NCBI GenBank assembly: GCA_021807595.1
Contig: JAKBCS010000038.1
Location: 1-39,344, forward strand
DNA from: Planctomycetota bacterium
Lineage (GTDB): Bacteria > Planctomycetota > Planctomycetia > Gemmatales > Gemmataceae
DNA: 39,344 nt
Reading direction: 5' to 3'
In this document: piece after piece, positions 2,814-9,040 of the stretch
Layout: each line of letters begins with the position of its first letter
Numbering within the stretch: the stretch's first letter is position 1
The notes under the pieces: model-generated
What the model saw: only the letters and a program-made list of their open reading frames with translations
What the model was told of the DNA's origin: nothing
Database searches by the model: none
Translations under genes and position numbers: made by a program

Positions 2814-5081
2814 ATGACGGCCAGATACCACGATCCGAGCTTGGCCTTCCTCTTTCCCTCGTCCGCAACTGCGCGGCTTGGAGGGAAAAACATCGGGGGA
2901 TTCCTGGCGGCTTCTCTGCTGTGGGCCTGTCTAGCGCCCGCCATGTCGCTGGGGCAAGACCGTCGCAACTCCGGGGTGATCGCGCCCATTCCCACGACCA
3001 TTACCACCGAGGCGACCAATCGGCTGCGCGGCATCGTTCATGTGCCCTGGAAGCGTTTTGAGAGAGATCGGAACCGCGATCCCAAGAACATCGGCGAGTT
3101 TTACCTCATCTGCGACTTCAACCCCGACAACCGCGAGAATGCCAGCGACGATCCCGGCGCTTGTCAGACGCTCGCTCGCTATCTGCGCGACTTGCAGCGG
3201 AAACAGGGGGTTCAAGTTCTCGCCTACCTACATGGGAAGGTGTCGCGCCACGCCGTCTTGCCGGTCTTGGCCTGTTCCGAGATCATCATGTCTCAAGAAC
3301 CGTCGGTCTCCTTCGGTAAAGTCGCCGACGAACGACATCCTCTCGAACGCCTCGACCGTTTGGCTTACGACGATCTCGCCAACAAACGCTATCGTCCGGT
3401 TCTCATCCGCAAGATGTACGATGCCAACGTCGAAGTCATCCGGGGCAGCGACGGCAACTATCTCGATGCCAACGAGACTCCGCGACCGCGCGGCGAGCCG
3501 GTCTCCGGGCTCGACCGCGGCGAGACGGTCTCGTATTCGTTCACCCTGGCCGCCAAGCTCGGCCTGTGTCAGCCGATCCCTCTCGATTCGCTCGACGCCG
3601 TGCGTCGAGCCTACGGACTGCCGCCGGAGAGTATCTATTCGTCGCTCGATCGCGTCGTCGCACGGCGCATCGTTCTCAAAGGTGCCATCGACGGCGAGAT
3701 GAAGGAGCGAGTCAAGCGGCGCGTCGGACAAGTTCTCGGACAGAAGGCGAACCTCATCATTCTCGAATTGGCCTGCGGCGGAGGCGACAGCGGAGCGGCC
3801 CGCGATTTGGCCGCGTTTCTCTCGGAGATCAACAACGCGCGCCGAGACCCGGTCGAGACCATCGCCTACGTCACCACCGAAGCCCACGACACCGCGGCAT
3901 TCTTGGCCTTTGGCTGCGACAAGATCGTCCTCCAACGCGGGCTGCAACAGAACGGACAGGTCGTTCGAGAAGAGGCGTTCCTCGGCGGCTTCGAGCGTTA
4001 CATCCGCGAGCATCCGACCGAGGAAGAGACGATGCGCCGCGATCTCGTCGAACTCGCCGAGAAGAAGCACTATCCGCGCCTGCTCGCCGAGGGAATGCTC
4101 GACCGCGAAGTGCGCATCGTCGAAGTCGAAAGCACCAAGGAAGCGAGCGTTCGCCAATTCATCGACGAAACCGAATGGAAATCGGACCAACGGGGCGATC
4201 GGCGCTGGCGGGTCATCGCCGTCGTCAAGCCGTCGAGCGAAAAGGAAGAAGGCAATTATCTCACTTTGTCGGCGGAGCGGGCGCGGCGCTATGGCTTGGC
4301 CCGCGAGTTGGTCGAGGACTTCGACGGACTGTGCGAATTGGAAGGCGTCAACCCCACCGAAGTTCCCACTGCCGAATCCGACTTGCTCGACGCGCTCGTC
4401 GATTTTCTCCGCGATCCGTGGACGAGCATGGTCTTGGTCATGCTGGGTATCACCTGTCTGATCCTGGAATTGAAGATGCCCGGTGTCGGACTCCCCGGCA
4501 TCGTGTCGGCCATTTGCTTTCTGCTCTTTTTCTGGTCGCATTCGCAGGTGAGCGGTCAAGTGGTCTGGTTGGCGTTCTTGCTGTTCCTTTTGGGGTTGGT
4601 CTTGCTCGCTTTGGAAATCTTCGTGATTCCGGGTTTCGGCGTCACCGGCATCAGCGGCATCATTCTGGTTCTCGGCAGCTTGGGGCTGGTGGCTTACGGT
4701 CATTGGCCGCGCAGCAATGAGGAATGGATCGGCTACGGTCAGGCTCTCAGTCCGTTCTCGCTCAGCATCCTTGGAGCCGTGGTGTCGGCTTTCTTCCTGG
4801 CTCGATATCTACCGCACATACCCTACGCGAACCGCCTGATGCTGAAACCGCGAGACGAGCCGAGCGAGGAAATCGAACACTTCGCGGACACCATCCATCC
4901 GGAAATCGCCGCCTTGCTAGGAGCCATCGGAGTTGCCGCGACTCCGCTTCGTCCCGCCGGCAAGGTTCGCTTCGGCGACGACTTCGTCGATGTCCTCGCC
5001 GAGGGCAATTACGTTCAACCGGGATCGCGCGTCCAAGTGATCGAAATCGAAGGCAATCGCGTCGTAGTCAAGGAGGTGTGA
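2814..5081 (+). CDS. Long NfeD-family membrane protein with two ClpP-like domains
   Basis: 755 residues. An N-terminal signal or membrane segment (about 28-46) is followed by two regions resembling the ClpP/SppA fold: one around 95-260 (QVLAYLHGKVS, EIIMSQEPSVSFGKV) and one around 285-440 (LIILELACGGGDSG, AYVTTEAHDTAAFLAF, DKIVLQ, then REVRIVEV). A membrane domain with about four to five helices spans 535-665, and a soluble OB-like NfeD domain (PLRPAGKVRFGDDFVDV) closes the protein. In active NfeD/1510-type proteases a Ser sits in an A-S-A-G-like turn; here the equivalent places read VSRHAV and HDTAAF, so both domains may be inactive. NfeD proteins partner with flotillins, and floA is two genes downstream. 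The ATG at 2814 has GAGG 7 bases upstream. Confidence 0.9.
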   Translation: MTARYHDPSLAFLFPSSATARLGGKNIGGFLAASLLWACLAPAMSLGQDRRNSGVIAPIPTTITTEATNRLRGIVHVPWKRFERDRNRDPKNIGEFYLICDFNPDNRENASDDPGACQTLARYLRDLQRKQGVQVLAYLHGKVSRHAVLPVLACSEIIMSQEPSVSFGKVADERHPLERLDRLAYDDLANKRYRPVLIRKMYDANVEVIRGSDGNYLDANETPRPRGEPVSGLDRGETVSYSFTLAAKLGLCQPIPLDSLDAVRRAYGLPPESIYSSLDRVVARRIVLKGAIDGEMKERVKRRVGQVLGQKANLIILELACGGGDSGAARDLAAFLSEINNARRDPVETIAYVTTEAHDTAAFLAFGCDKIVLQRGLQQNGQVVREEAFLGGFERYIREHPTEEETMRRDLVELAEKKHYPRLLAEGMLDREVRIVEVESTKEASVRQFIDETEWKSDQRGDRRWRVIAVVKPSSEKEEGNYLTLSAERARRYGLARELVEDFDGLCELEGVNPTEVPTAESDLLDALVDFLRDPWTSMVLVMLGITCLILELKMPGVGLPGIVSAICFLLFFWSHSQVSGQVVWLAFLLFLLGLVLLALEIFVIPGFGVTGISGIILVLGSLGLVAYGHWPRSNEEWIGYGQALSPFSLSILGAVVSAFFLARYLPHIPYANRLMLKPRDEPSEEIEHFADTIHPEIAALLGAIGVAATPLRPAGKVRFGDDFVDVLAEGNYVQPGSRVQVIEIEGNRVVVKEV

Positions 5082-5131
5082 TCGGCAATCGGCTATTCGC
5101 TATCAGCCGCATACAATGAATAGTAGTTTGC

Positions 5132-5165
5132 CGAAAGCCGAGAGCCGACGAAAGCCGAGAGCCGA
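5132..5165 (+). repeat. Tandem 17-bp direct repeat in front of the short nfeD gene
   Basis: Two exact copies of CGAAAGCCGAGAGCCGA lie at 5132-5148 and 5149-5165, ending one base before the preferred ATG at 5167. An upstream in-frame ATG at 5116 would translate through them, but repeat-like sequence argues that they are spacer. Confidence 0.8.
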
Positions 5166-5166
5166 T

Positions 5167-5700
5167 ATGGACAACAATACTCTCATCTTGGGTTATCTCT
5201 TGATCGGCGTGGGGTTTCTGCTCTTGGTTGCCGATCTGTTTTTGATGAGCGGCGTCTTGGCTGCCTTCTCGTTGGGGGCCATCGTCGTCGGGGTCATTTT
5301 GACGTTTCTGAGCGGCGGGACGACGATTGGGATCATTACCTGCGTCGCGGTATTTTTCGCTTTGCCGTTGACGATTCGCCTGCTGTTGACGTTTTGGCCG
5401 CGAACGCCGATGGGTCGGCAATTTTTCTTGAGCGAACAATCGGAAGACGCCACCCTGGCCGCCGTGCCGATCAATCGAGAACTCGAGCATCTCAAGGGGC
5501 GCGTGGGCCGCGCTCTGTCGGCGTTGCGCCCGGCCGGGATGGTCGATTTCGGCGGAAAGCGTATTGATAGCATCACCGAGGGCATGATGGTGGAGGCCGA
5601 TCAGATGGTGCGCTGCATTGACGTGCGCGCCGGCAAAGTCGTGGTTCGTCCCATCGAGAAAATGGACCTCGGCGATCTGGAAACAGCGATTTTTACCTGA
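5167..5700 (+). CDS. Short NfeD-family membrane protein
   Basis: 177 residues from the ATG at 5167. The N-terminal half is hydrophobic, with about three to four membrane helices ([20 protein letters not shown] onward to about residue 78). The C-terminal part contains a soluble NfeD OB-fold: [30 protein letters not shown] and [10 protein letters not shown]. This is the short class of NfeD, which in many bacteria is encoded beside a flotillin and is thought to help organise membrane microdomains. It follows the long NfeD by 85 bases and precedes floA by 89 bases, so the three are probably co-transcribed. I prefer 5167 to the ATG at 5116 because the 17 extra residues would be encoded by the tandem repeat; no strong ribosome site separates the two choices. 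Confidence 0.85.
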
Positions 5701-5789
5701 TAACCTTGGCGAACCGGCAACGCCAGCTGCCGGTTCACTTCGATCGACCGACGGCGTCGGCTATCCGTTCACAAACACCGGAGACAAGT

Positions 5790-6851
5790 ATGAATGCTTT
5801 CTTGTTCGCCCAACAACAAGCGCAGCAACCGAATCCCTTTGCTGGCAATCAGTGGCTCTGGATCGTCCTCGTCCTTGGGGGGATTGCCGGGCTGGTCGTG
5901 TTGTTTGTCTTCTTCAGCTTCGTGCAATTGTGGATACAGTGCCTTTTGACGGGAGCGAAGATCGGCATTTTGGACATGGTTCGTATGAAACTGTGCAAAG
6001 TAGACTACTCGTTAATCGTACGGCAGAAGATCGCCTTGGTGCAAGCAGGGGTCAAGGTTTCGACGCAGGAGATGGAAGCGCATTACCTGTCGCGCGGCAA
6101 TGTGCAGCGCGTGGCCGGGGCGGTCATCGCCGCTCACAAGGCCGGGATGGATCTGCCCTGGCGCGTCGCTGCTGCCATCGACCTGGCCGGACGCGACATC
6201 TACGAGGCCGTCAAACGCAGCGTCGATCCCAAAGTGATCGACTGTCCCGATCCGAGCAAGGGCCGCGCCACGCTCGACGGCGTATGCAAGAACGGTATTC
6301 AGTTGAAGGCTCGCGCCCGCGTCACGGTGCGGACGAAGCTCGATCGGCTCGTCGGTGGAGCGACCGAGGAGACGATCATCGCTCGCGTGGGCGAGGGGAT
6401 CGTCAAAGCCATCGGCAGCGCCGAGCATCATACCGACGTGTTGGCCAATCCGAATCTGATTTCGCAACAGGTGCTGCGCAACTCGCTGGATTCGCAAACC
6501 ATGTTCGAGATCGTGTCCATCGACGTGGCCGAGATCGACGTGGGCCAAAACATCGGCGCGAACTTGCAGGCCGATCAGGCGGCGGCCGATCTGCGCGTCG
6601 CGCAGGCCAACGCCGAGAAACGCCGTGCCCTGGCCGTGGCGCTCGAGCAAGAGATGCGGGCCAAAGTAGAGGAGAACCGGGCGCAAGTCGTGTTGGCCGA
6701 GGCCGAGGTGCCGCGCGCCATCTCCCAGGCGTTCCGCGAGGGACATCTCGGTGTGATGGACTATTACAATCTGAAAAATCTTCAGTCGGACACGCAGATG
6801 CGCAACGCCATCGGCGGCGCTTCCGAACGCAACGACCGCAATCCCGGATGA
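5790..6851 (+). CDS. floA: Flotillin-like protein FloA
   Basis: 353 residues from the ATG at 5790, with GGAGA 5 bases upstream. A hydrophobic membrane-insertion segment (about residues 21-46) is followed by the sequence of the FloA/YqfA family: [56 protein letters not shown] and [21 protein letters not shown], then an Ala/Glu-rich coiled coil with [21 protein letters not shown]. Flotillins form oligomers on the inner face of the membrane and mark microdomains that hold signalling and secretion proteins. The two NfeD genes upstream are the usual partners. Its stop codon overlaps an in-frame ATG of the next gene (ATGA at 6848-6851), indicating tight coupling. Confidence 0.95.
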
Positions 6852-6865
6852 ACGGAGGACGCCCC

Positions 6866-7399
6866 ATGCAATGGGAAATTCTGATAATCCCCCTCATCGC
6901 CTTGGGGGTGTGGATTTTGGGAACCTTGCTCAAAAGCGACGACGAGAAGACGAAGCCGGGTGTGCGCCGCCCCAATTCGTCGGGGCGTACTCCAGCGCGC
7001 CGTCCGGTGACAAATCTCGAACAATTTCTCGACGAGGCGCGCCGCCGCCGCGAGGCGGAATCGCGCCCGAAGACGCCGCCCGCGCCGCCCGCCCCCCACG
7101 CTACCGTCTCTCGTCCGGCCTTGCGCGAGCCACAGGCTCGTCCAAGCCCGACGCCACGGCGTGCCGCTCCGCTCCGCGAAGAAGTTCCGGCGGCCAAGCC
7201 GGTCGCGCGCCCCGTCGCGCAAGTCGATGTGGTCGAAGTCGTCGCCGAAGGGCTTCCCGCACCCCCCTCCCCACGCGCCGCCCAACCCACGCCGATTGTG
7301 AAACAAGTACGATCCTTGTTGTCGCAACCGCAAACCGTGGGGACGGCGTTCGTGCTGCGTGAAATCTTCGATCGGCCATTGTGTCGGCGGCGTCGTTGA
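6866..7399 (+). CDS. Pro-rich single-pass membrane protein, unknown function
   Basis: 177 residues. One membrane helix (IPLIALGVWILGTLL, about 8-22) is followed by a long, low-complexity tail rich in Pro, Ala and Arg, with a possible short helical segment near 50 (NLEQFLDEARRRREA). The C-terminus (VRSLLSQPQTVGTAFVLREIFDRP) resembles a conserved last segment seen in small planctomycete membrane proteins encoded after flotillin genes, but I cannot name a family. The ATG at 6866 has a perfect GGAGG at 6854-6858, 7 bases upstream; the ATG at 6848 overlaps the floA stop and lacks this. Its place at the end of the nfeD-floA cluster suggests a role with the flotillin. The C-terminal segment looks like ordered sequence, so the gene is likely real. 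Confidence 0.7.
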   Translation: MQWEILIIPLIALGVWILGTLLKSDDEKTKPGVRRPNSSGRTPARRPVTNLEQFLDEARRRREAESRPKTPPAPPAPHATVSRPALREPQARPSPTPRRAAPLREEVPAAKPVARPVAQVDVVEVVAEGLPAPPSPRAAQPTPIVKQVRSLLSQPQTVGTAFVLREIFDRPLCRRRR

Positions 7400-7621: not shown

Positions 7622-9040
7622 TTAGCGTTTACCGCCTTCGGACTTTTTCAACTGCTCGCGCAGTTCTCTCACCGCTCTATCCAGCACGTCGAGGGTCCGT
7701 TCCATCTCCTGCTTGACGCCGGGCTTCTGCATATTCTGCATCATCTCTACCCATTTCACATCTTTGCCTTCGAGGATGATCCTGAAGGGAACCCCTTTGC
7801 CCTGCCCTTTGGGAGCGGGGGGAGTGGTCTCGATTTTGGGAATAGGCTTAAACTCAATTTTCCCTTCAATCTTGGGTGCCGGCTTCGATTCTTTGTTCTT
7901 GGGTGCCGCCGGCTTGACCTCAATGCCGATGCCGGACTTTCCCGCCGGTTGTTTGCCGCCGCTCTCGAAAATCATGGGAACTTGTTTACCGTCTAAATTG
8001 AGGATGATGCTCCTCATCGGCGCAGTGGCGGGCGAGCTTTTGAGCGTGCGTAACTCGGCTTCTTGGGCGCGAACCTTTTCCAGCACGACTTCCAGATTGA
8101 GCTTGAGCAATTCGTTTTCGCGGCGCAGTCGTTCCAATTCTCCTTGCGGTTTTCCGTCGCCCCGTTTCTCGTTTGGAGTCGCCGTCTGTCCCACCGCTTG
8201 GTAGACCAGACCGCTCGTTCCGAGCGCTACGGCGACAACTACCGCGCCAACCATCATCTTCAGTTTGGATAGGAACATGGACTTCAACACTCCTTTCATC
8301 AAGAGGGCACTGGAAGCGGAGAGTGCCGACAACTCGCCCGCCGCAACCAACGCCGCCGCTTGCACCGTGGATGAGAGTAAAGTTGCCGGTACTTGAGCCG
8401 TGACGGCGCATTCTCCGAGAATCGCGGCCACCGCGACACCCGACAACATCAAACCGTGGCGGGAGAGGCGTTTGGCCAACAAACGTCTTCCCCGCGCCAG
8501 TCGAGACGAAACCGTCCCCTCGGCCAGCCCTAAGAAGCGGGCAGCCTCTCGACGCGACCGCCCCTCCAGATCGCACGCCACGATCGCTTCGCGGTAGCAA
8601 TCCGGCAGACGGCTCAGCTCCAGATCGAGCCAAGGCCGCCAATCGTTCGCTTCGGGCGGTGTGACATCGGGGTGCGGCATGTCCTCCACCTGCCTCTCTC
8701 GCGCGCGTCGCCGAGCGTTTACTGCCCTTGCCTCCAACGAAGTCCGATAGGCAACGGCATACAACCAACTGCCTACCGATTCGTGTTTCACCTTCGCCGC
8801 TTTTCGAGCCAACACCATGAACGTCGCCTGGAAGCAATCCTCGGCATCCTGAGCGTGGTGCAGCATGCGCCGACACACGGCAATAACCATCGGGCCATGC
8901 CTTTTCACCAGGGACGCGAATGACGCTTCATCCCGCGACGCGATAAACTGCGCCAGCAACTCGCCGTCCGACCGGTCGCCTCCCGGAGGCGCAAGGACGC
9001 GATGCAGGTGCTGGAGAACCTTGCTCAAGCTCGTTGTCAT
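7622..9040 (-). CDS. ECF RNA polymerase sigma factor with membrane-spanning C-terminal extension
   Basis: 472 residues, more than twice a normal ECF sigma factor. Region 2 lies at about 40-105 (FASLVKRHGPMVIAVCRRML, DAEDCFQATFMVLARKA) and region 4 at about 145-195 (LPDCYREAIVACDLEG, REAARFLGLAEGTVSSRL). The extra part has two hydrophobic segments (near 205-222 and 266-285), a Leu/Glu-rich coiled coil (about 300-340), a Lys/Pro-rich stretch of KPAPKIEGKIEFKPIPK type, and a final amphipathic helix. Planctomycetes carry many ECF factors of this Gemmata-like kind in which the extension may replace a separate anti-sigma factor, tethering the protein to the membrane. No anti-sigma gene is adjacent, which fits. 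The start at 9040 has GAGGG about 8 bases upstream. The regulated genes are unknown. Confidence 0.9.
   Translation of the reverse strand: MTTSLSKVLQHLHRVLAPPGGDRSDGELLAQFIASRDEASFASLVKRHGPMVIAVCRRMLHHAQDAEDCFQATFMVLARKAAKVKHESVGSWLYAVAYRTSLEARAVNARRRARERQVEDMPHPDVTPPEANDWRPWLDLELSRLPDCYREAIVACDLEGRSRREAARFLGLAEGTVSSRLARGRRLLAKRLSRHGLMLSGVAVAAILGECAVTAQVPATLLSSTVQAAALVAAGELSALSASSALLMKGVLKSMFLSKLKMMVGAVVVAVALGTSGLVYQAVGQTATPNEKRGDGKPQGELERLRRENELLKLNLEVVLEKVRAQEAELRTLKSSPATAPMRSIILNLDGKQVPMIFESGGKQPAGKSGIGIEVKPAAPKNKESKPAPKIEGKIEFKPIPKIETTPPAPKGQGKGVPFRIILEGKDVKWVEMMQNMQKPGVKQEMERTLDVLDRAVRELREQLKKSEGGKR

Follow-up and report, generated by a model that had tools for sequence, protein, structure and literature searches.

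Introduction

Does a long NfeD protein that is encoded beside a flotillin gene and carries two ClpP-like domains still act as a protease, or does its ectodomain serve another purpose? The question is raised by the gene at positions 2814–5081 of the window, which is the whole stretch of 39,344 nucleotides analysed here. NfeD1b proteins with a ClpP domain are known, as is the association of SPFH5 (FloA type) with YqeZ, planctomycetes included (PMC2636767). Clp–NfeD fusions are known as well (PMC2605481). Searches of the open-licence PMC literature listed no paper whose title concerns NfeD domains that are tandem or catalytically inactive.

The long NfeD and its gene neighbourhood

The long NfeD was delimited by ORF calling, Pfam, and our own profiles. 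Its parts, the residues in its catalytic columns, and the two genes that follow it are listed below.

2814..5081, + strand: long NfeD (NfeD1b-like), 755 aa, with a signal peptide at the N-terminus recognised by eye
3093..3635, + strand: ectodomain 1 (residues ~94–274), ClpP/NfeD1b-like, catalytic column without Ser
3246..3248, + strand: R145, in the domain-1 column of the catalytic Ser
3669..4370, + strand: ectodomain 2 (residues ~286–519), NfeD1b_N
3888..3890, + strand: D359, in the domain-2 column of 1510-N Ser97
3891..3893, + strand: T360, the residue after the Ser column
4017..4019, + strand: T402, in the domain-2 column of 1510-N Lys138, an assignment less secure than the one for Ser
4422..4799, + strand: NfeD integral membrane domain (residues 537–662), PF24961, E 2e-24, over the cut-off
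4911..5072, + strand: NfeD OB (partner-binding) domain (residues 700–753), PF01957, E 7e-13, over the cut-off
5116..5700, + strand: short NfeD with an OB domain (PF01957, E 6e-7) and without a ClpP-like domain
5706..6851, + strand: FloA, a flotillin-like SPFH protein (PF12127, E 2.3e-138; NF010186, E 1.2e-142), start codon uncertain

By its predicted domains the long NfeD is an NfeD1b protein, with C-terminal membrane and OB domains, a ClpP-type domain, and an SPFH gene downstream. The gene order long NfeD, short NfeD, FloA is conserved in the window's family, and an operon is predicted. FloA lies downstream in 61 of the 62 family copies that have at least 650 aa and at least 2 kb of downstream sequence. 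Two copies of the order, L112 and L146, show at least 2 kb downstream and lack FloA. No second long NfeD is seen in the window's genome (5.67 Mb in 282 contigs, 95.5% complete), whose other two PF25145 matches are S49/SppA-like proteins of 608 and 398 aa. Among the matches listed for the order, a second, intact long NfeD was not found. No relative turned up among the viral contigs scanned.

The region around these genes has several further features. A small ORF follows FloA at 6852–7399, in the frame of ORF 5618–7399; it begins MQWEIL and has a hydrophobic start and a Pro/Arg-rich tail. The neighbour at 678–2450 (− strand) is a glycoside hydrolase family 15 protein with a trehalase-like N-terminus. 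The one at 7622–9040 (− strand) is a sigma-70-like protein, presumably of the ECF type, with regions 2 and 4 only and a long C-terminal extension. At positions 553–661 a GC-rich unit of 36 bp occurs in three perfect copies in tandem, and an inverted copy is present at 652–684. This unit has at least 64 matches in its own genome (40 of 232 candidates scored), many of them as +/− pairs of ~30 bp separated by a few bases, and is a dispersed REP/BIME-like element.

Relatives compared

Matches were obtained in 91 of 95 genomes of the window's family (f1), 98 of 102 of its order, and 227 of 294 of the phylum. The second family of the order is denoted f94, and three other families of the class f2, f3, and f4; 39 of 41 genomes of f3 and 22 of 26 of f4 have a match. 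The set kept from the fetched loci consists of 199 distinct ORFs that are at least 380 aa long and score above 100 bits with the family profile. Frames below this length were left out, as were rows that shared an identical 150-aa C-terminus with another row, and a genus without ectodomains is thus excluded from this set. The two-domain copies of the order number 81, 74 from f1 and 7 from f94. L132 and L125 (two frames) are order rows that represent fragments or broken genes, and G389, a gene of f94, carries an in-frame TAG. Rows outside the class represent an uneven sample, picked from top matches and long frames. L169, L185, and L196 were scored as one-domain, having a single ClpP-like domain by HMM.

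Evidence for two ClpP-like domains

A preliminary description of the window placed two successive ClpP-like regions at about residues 95–260 and 285–440. Profile and hhalign cross-matches confirm both, with limits at ~94–274 and 286–519. The Pfam family NfeD1b_N (PF25145) covers residues 286–440, and thus ectodomain 2 only (E 1.7e-11, 44.5 bits, cut-off 40), while the match to the domain-2 profile spans 289–522 of the stop-to-stop frame. Ectodomain 1 has no Pfam match of its own. It matches our domain-1 profile at E 7e-51, and NfeD1b_N is matched by 9 of the 46 domain-1 segments of alignment A1 (E up to 0.01). A profile made from domain-2 regions alone recognises domain 1 of the window protein at E 4.8e-15. 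With hhalign, domain 1 (46 sequences) aligns to the active domain 2 (16 sequences) at 99.9% and E 5.5e-32, and to the order's domain 2 (31 sequences) at E 4.1e-31; the order's domain 2 and the active domain 2 align at E 9.9e-46. By these profile comparisons, domain 1 is a second copy of the same domain as domain 2.

Searches of the PDB identify 1510-N (2deo, 3bpp/3viv, 6m4b) at E ~1e-12 with the order's domain-2 profile and at E ~1e-25 with the active-set profile. The domain-1 profile gives only weak crotonase-fold matches (best E 0.025), and phmmer with the window protein alone gives no PDB match up to E 1. Two AlphaFold runs on 4-sequence alignments (the window and three related loci) are poor, with mean pLDDT of 46.3 and 49.1. 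The top Foldseek match of the poor two-domain model is the tandem S49 SppA 3bez (E 6.8e-5, TM-scores 0.17). 1510-N and ClpP occur in its first 50 matches (TM-scores 0.14–0.41), intermixed with methylenetetrahydrofolate reductase, KaiC, and other unrelated folds. The poor model of domain 1 alone finds nothing below E 0.001; an unrelated NYN domain comes first, and SppA is at rank 7 (E 0.069). Since the models are poor and the Foldseek results on them weak, the fold assignment rests on the profiles.

Catalytic columns in the window protein and its order

The catalytic dyad of 1510-N consists of Ser97 and Lys138 (PMC3795559). The 1510-N Ser shares a column with the active-set Ser, and the 6m4b chain carries A at that position. 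In the profile alignment, this column corresponds to R145 in domain 1 (VS-R-HAV) and to D359 in domain 2 (H-D-TAAF). The earlier claim that both domains are without a catalytic Ser is therefore borne out, and the domain-2 Lys is absent too, as the Lys138 column falls on T402; the loop preceding that column aligns poorly. The residues of a Ser–Lys membrane protease of the 1510-N type are thus missing from the aligned columns.

The same applies to the order. The Ser column in the 81 two-domain copies comprises G (49), R (27), L (2), A (2), and K (1) in domain 1, and D (55), G (15), N (5), A (5), and S (1) in domain 2. Ser and Lys occur together in none of the 81. The sole Ser-bearing copy, L115, is without Lys, and the two copies with K at column 402 (L099 and L121), where the alignment is doubtful, are without Ser. 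As judged from these alignments, the loss of catalytic residues is a clade property of the window's order.

Thr360 had been put forward as a conceivable replacement for Ser. It sits one residue past the Ser column, and among 74 family members the position is T in just 17 (A in 28, L in 19). Thr360 as nucleophile was rejected on account of the wrong column and this poor conservation.

Distribution across families and classes

Window's order: By HMM counts, 73 of the 74 f1 copies of at least 650 aa have two ClpP-like domains, and one has three matches. With a short frame included, f1 has 75 two-domain copies, none with Ser and Lys; FloA was seen in 65, a short NfeD only in 5, and the flank is too short in 5. 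The seven two-domain copies of f94 also have Ser and Lys in none, with FloA in 5 and a short NfeD only in 2.

Family f2: All 16 two-domain copies retain Ser and Lys in domain 2. FloA and short NfeD are both absent beside all eight of these copies with at least 2.4 kb seen. The best FloA loci of seven f2 genomes have a short, OB-only NfeD upstream in 6/7 and a long NfeD in 0/7, and two second FloA loci in f2 genomes are also without NfeD. In the f2 genome at L279, two FloA genes of opposite orientation, separated by less than 1 kb, flank a short NfeD.

Families f3 and f4: The 56 two-domain copies have Lys in none and Ser in 20. Their neighbourhoods contain FloA (29), a short NfeD only (7), or neither within 2.4 kb (7), and the flank is too short in 13. 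All 23 one-domain copies have both Ser and Lys; FloA or a short NfeD was seen beside none of them, and for five of them at least 2.4 kb was in view.

Outside the class: This sample comprises 14 one-domain copies (FloA beside 13) and 7 two-domain copies (FloA beside 5), and Ser and Lys are present in the C-terminal ClpP-like domain of all 21. The rule that a copy beside FloA is dead was rejected on these grounds. The two-domain copies L149, L150, L153, L154, and L157 have G or A in the domain-1 Ser column. On domain 1 of L153 and L157 the domain-2 profile matches very strongly (E 1e-44 and 2e-47), and these two may represent separate duplications.

Across all groups, the domain-1 column is free of Ser in every two-domain copy, one row being gapped at this position. 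The preliminary description had asked if every planctomycete orthologue lacks Ser and Lys. This is not so: the loss holds for the window's order, and domain 2 is intact in f2 and in the other classes sampled. Its statement that most long NfeD proteins have one ClpP-like domain agrees with the phylum's other classes, where the listed matches mostly start near residue 286, and does not hold in the window's class, where tandem copies are usual.

Tree and order of losses

Trees were calculated from the columns of domain 2, the membrane domain, and the OB domain, with motif columns removed and f1 subsampled, using FastTree (147 rows) and quick IQ-TREE (68 rows); no root was inferred. Three clades are present, namely the order's copies, the dead two-domain copies of f3 and f4, and the unlinked Ser–Lys copies (two-domain in f2, one-domain in f3 and f4). 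Parsimony requires 2 changes for Lys with IQ-TREE and 3 with FastTree, where L099 is scored K. For Ser, 4 changes (IQ-TREE) or 14 (FastTree) are required. The AU test (p 0.075, 68 rows) does not reject a tree in which all dead copies group together as one clade. On these reconstructions Lys was lost once or twice and Ser repeatedly. Lys probably disappeared before Ser, because 20 of the 56 two-domain copies of f3 and f4 keep Ser without Lys.

Selection and ectodomain loss

Dead and intact ectodomains were compared at a membrane-domain identity of 0.40–0.60. In f1 (465 pairs), the median identities are 0.302 for domain 1, 0.291 for domain 2, 0.481 for the membrane domain, and 0.593 for the OB domain, and in f2 (95 pairs) they are 0.465, 0.508, 0.478, and 0.481. 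Dead f3 copies are near f1 (0.352 for domain 1, 0.305 for domain 2, 0.474 for the membrane domain; 471 pairs), and intact one-domain f3 copies are near f2 (0.435 for domain 2, 0.496 for the membrane domain; 109 pairs). NG86 dN/dS values for four f1 pairs are 0.267, 0.142, 0.101, and 0.047 in domain 1, 0.192, 0.113, 0.103, and 0.039 in domain 2, and 0.008, 0.045, 0.024, and 0.024 in the membrane domain. One f2 pair gives 0.035, 0.010, and 0.028, respectively. Judged from these sequence comparisons, the dead ectodomains are under purifying yet relaxed selection, weaker than that on the membrane and OB part.

One genus of the window's family, g237 (seven genomes; loci L135–L140 and L281–L283), has an NfeD open frame of 294–316 aa. 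The membrane and OB profiles match 6/6 of its loci searched. The domain-1 and domain-2 profiles match 0/6 (best E 0.53), two of these loci having fewer than 300 bases upstream. FloA is directly downstream of this NfeD in 3/3 loci tested, with no short NfeD between.

The main rival of a scaffold function is a plain relic, in which the ectodomain merely folds harmlessly and drifts towards deletion while the gene survives on account of its membrane and OB part, which binds FloA. The weaker constraint and the genus without ectodomains also fit such a decaying relic: ectodomain identity is far under membrane-domain identity, unlike in the intact family, and both domains are absent from g237. A 26-kDa NfeD that apparently lacks a ClpP domain works with FloA in S. 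aureus (PMC11222466). Nevertheless, dN/dS is well below 1 in both domains in 4/4 pairs, and F102, L120, H146, C154, G168, and C368 are kept in 75–81 of the 81 order copies. The two-domain layout is also nearly constant among the f1 copies of at least 650 aa, a count that does not include g237. On balance, a relic is rather unlikely.

Conserved residues and other catalytic arrangements

Another explanation is a hydrolase with new chemistry, in which catalysis would have passed to D359, H146, or a near-invariant Cys of the LAC motif (C154, C368). H146 is kept in 75/81 order copies, C154 in 79/81, and C368 in 80/81, and D occupies the Ser column in 55/81. C368 is also present in 53 of the 56 dead f3/f4 copies, as against less than 85% of the 23 intact f3/f4 copies. 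However, the intact f2 copies keep C368 (16/16) and C154 (15/16), so the Cys does not mark dead copies, and the LAC-motif Cys was rejected as a nucleophile despite its lower conservation in intact f3/f4. Moreover, D359 is replaced by G, N, or A in 25/81 copies, and H146 belongs to domain 1, which is without Ser even where domain 2 is intact. Few polar columns across both domains are conserved in at least 85% (D101, H146, C154, Y185, R302, C368). A new chemistry is therefore very improbable.

In SppA the active site is shared, with the Ser in one domain and the Lys in the other. Although 3bez heads the Foldseek list of the poor two-domain model, its TM-scores are 0.17, and such a cross-domain dyad is scarcely credible here: Ser occupies the catalytic column in 0/81 copies in domain 1 and 1/81 in domain 2, neither window domain having one, which leaves no nucleophile for any Lys.

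Comparison with known systems

NfeD1b/STOPP: The window protein resembles this type (PH1510, 1510-N; Bacillus YqeZ type) in its ClpP-type ectodomain, membrane domain, OB domain, and downstream SPFH gene, and its domain 2 matches 1510-N. It differs in having two ectodomains, where the known type has one. Unlike in 1510-N, the Ser97 and Lys138 columns of domain 2 and the Ser column of domain 1 are replaced. In contrast to PH1510, the SPFH gene of the locus encodes FloA (SPFH5) rather than p-stomatin, and an additional short NfeD separates it from the long NfeD.

Staphylococcus aureus NfeD–FloA: Both systems combine an NfeD membrane and OB domain with FloA, and the accessible text of PMC11222466 reports no proteolysis for the S. 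aureus protein. That protein (26 kDa) is described there without a ClpP-like domain, whereas the window protein keeps a large, dead tandem ectodomain.

Escherichia coli SppA: SppA (S49, tandem ClpP fold) likewise has two ClpP-fold domains in one chain and is an active protease. In contrast, the window protein is without a nucleophile in either domain, and its membrane and C-terminal parts differ.

Two-domain NfeD of f2: The domain order and the lack of Ser in domain 1 are shared. Unlike the window protein, these copies keep Ser and Lys in domain 2 (16/16) and have no adjoining FloA or short NfeD (8/8).

A probable pseudoprotease scaffold beside FloA

Taken together, the window protein is probably the FloA partner of an NfeD1b–FloA operon, its tandem ClpP-fold ectodomain now being a non-proteolytic module. 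A scaffold is preferred to a protease because both domains are without the cutting residues, as in nearly all relatives of the order examined. In analogy with S. aureus NfeD–FloA, the membrane domain and the cytoplasmic OB domain would hold FloA at a membrane microdomain. The ectodomain, presumably periplasmic, would act by shape only, for example by holding hydrophobic peptide stretches or a partner uncut. The conserved work would thus be done by the membrane and OB part, and the ectodomain would at most bind; its function in the window's family appears weakly constrained and could be lost outright.

Two studies provide parallels. The K138A variant of 1510-N is inactive, yet its dimer binds a hydrophobic substrate peptide (PMC3795559), so peptide binding is within reach of an NfeD domain of ClpP fold that has lost its activity. 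The S. aureus NfeD, a 26-kDa protein, comprises membrane and OB-like regions and associates with FloA via its OB-like domain, and FloA–NfeD stabilises unfolded proteins without ATP (PMC11222466). The pseudo-protease scaffold of the preliminary description, proposed to bind flotillin or substrates, accordingly remains the best-supported reading for a protein beside flotillin with the catalytic residues gone from both domains. Flotillin binding by the ClpP-like domains themselves is not indicated, as this contact is assigned in S. aureus to the OB-like domain (PMC11222466).

Several findings count against the scaffold reading. Outside the class, 18/18 copies with FloA seen are catalytically intact, and seven dead two-domain copies of f3 show neither FloA nor a short NfeD within 2.4 kb. 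For both reasons, FloA linkage as such does not equal loss of catalysis. The poorly aligned loop before the Lys column, the poor structural models with their mixed Foldseek lists, and the fit of relaxed constraint and ectodomain loss to a decaying relic also weigh against it.

A duplication of the gene in the class may account for the distribution, although this is put forward tentatively and the odds are somewhat against it. A tandem membrane protease would have been split into a flotillin-linked copy, which lost catalysis stepwise (Lys once or twice, and Ser many times thereafter), and an unlinked copy, which kept Ser and Lys. The window's order would have kept the dead linked copy only, another family only the live unlinked copy together with a bare short-NfeD–FloA operon, and one genus would have dropped both ectodomains.

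Implications

If this split is true, flotillin function and NfeD proteolysis could be separated from each other, and flotillin microdomains would contain a pseudoprotease, the dead tandem ectodomain, that binds peptides or a partner. Among related bacteria the FloA neighbour has a live protease domain, two dead protease domains, or no protease domain at all, and these bacteria thus constitute a natural experiment. Whether flotillin function needs NfeD proteolysis becomes testable, and a natural pseudoprotease offers a way to ask about the binding role of the ClpP-like fold itself.
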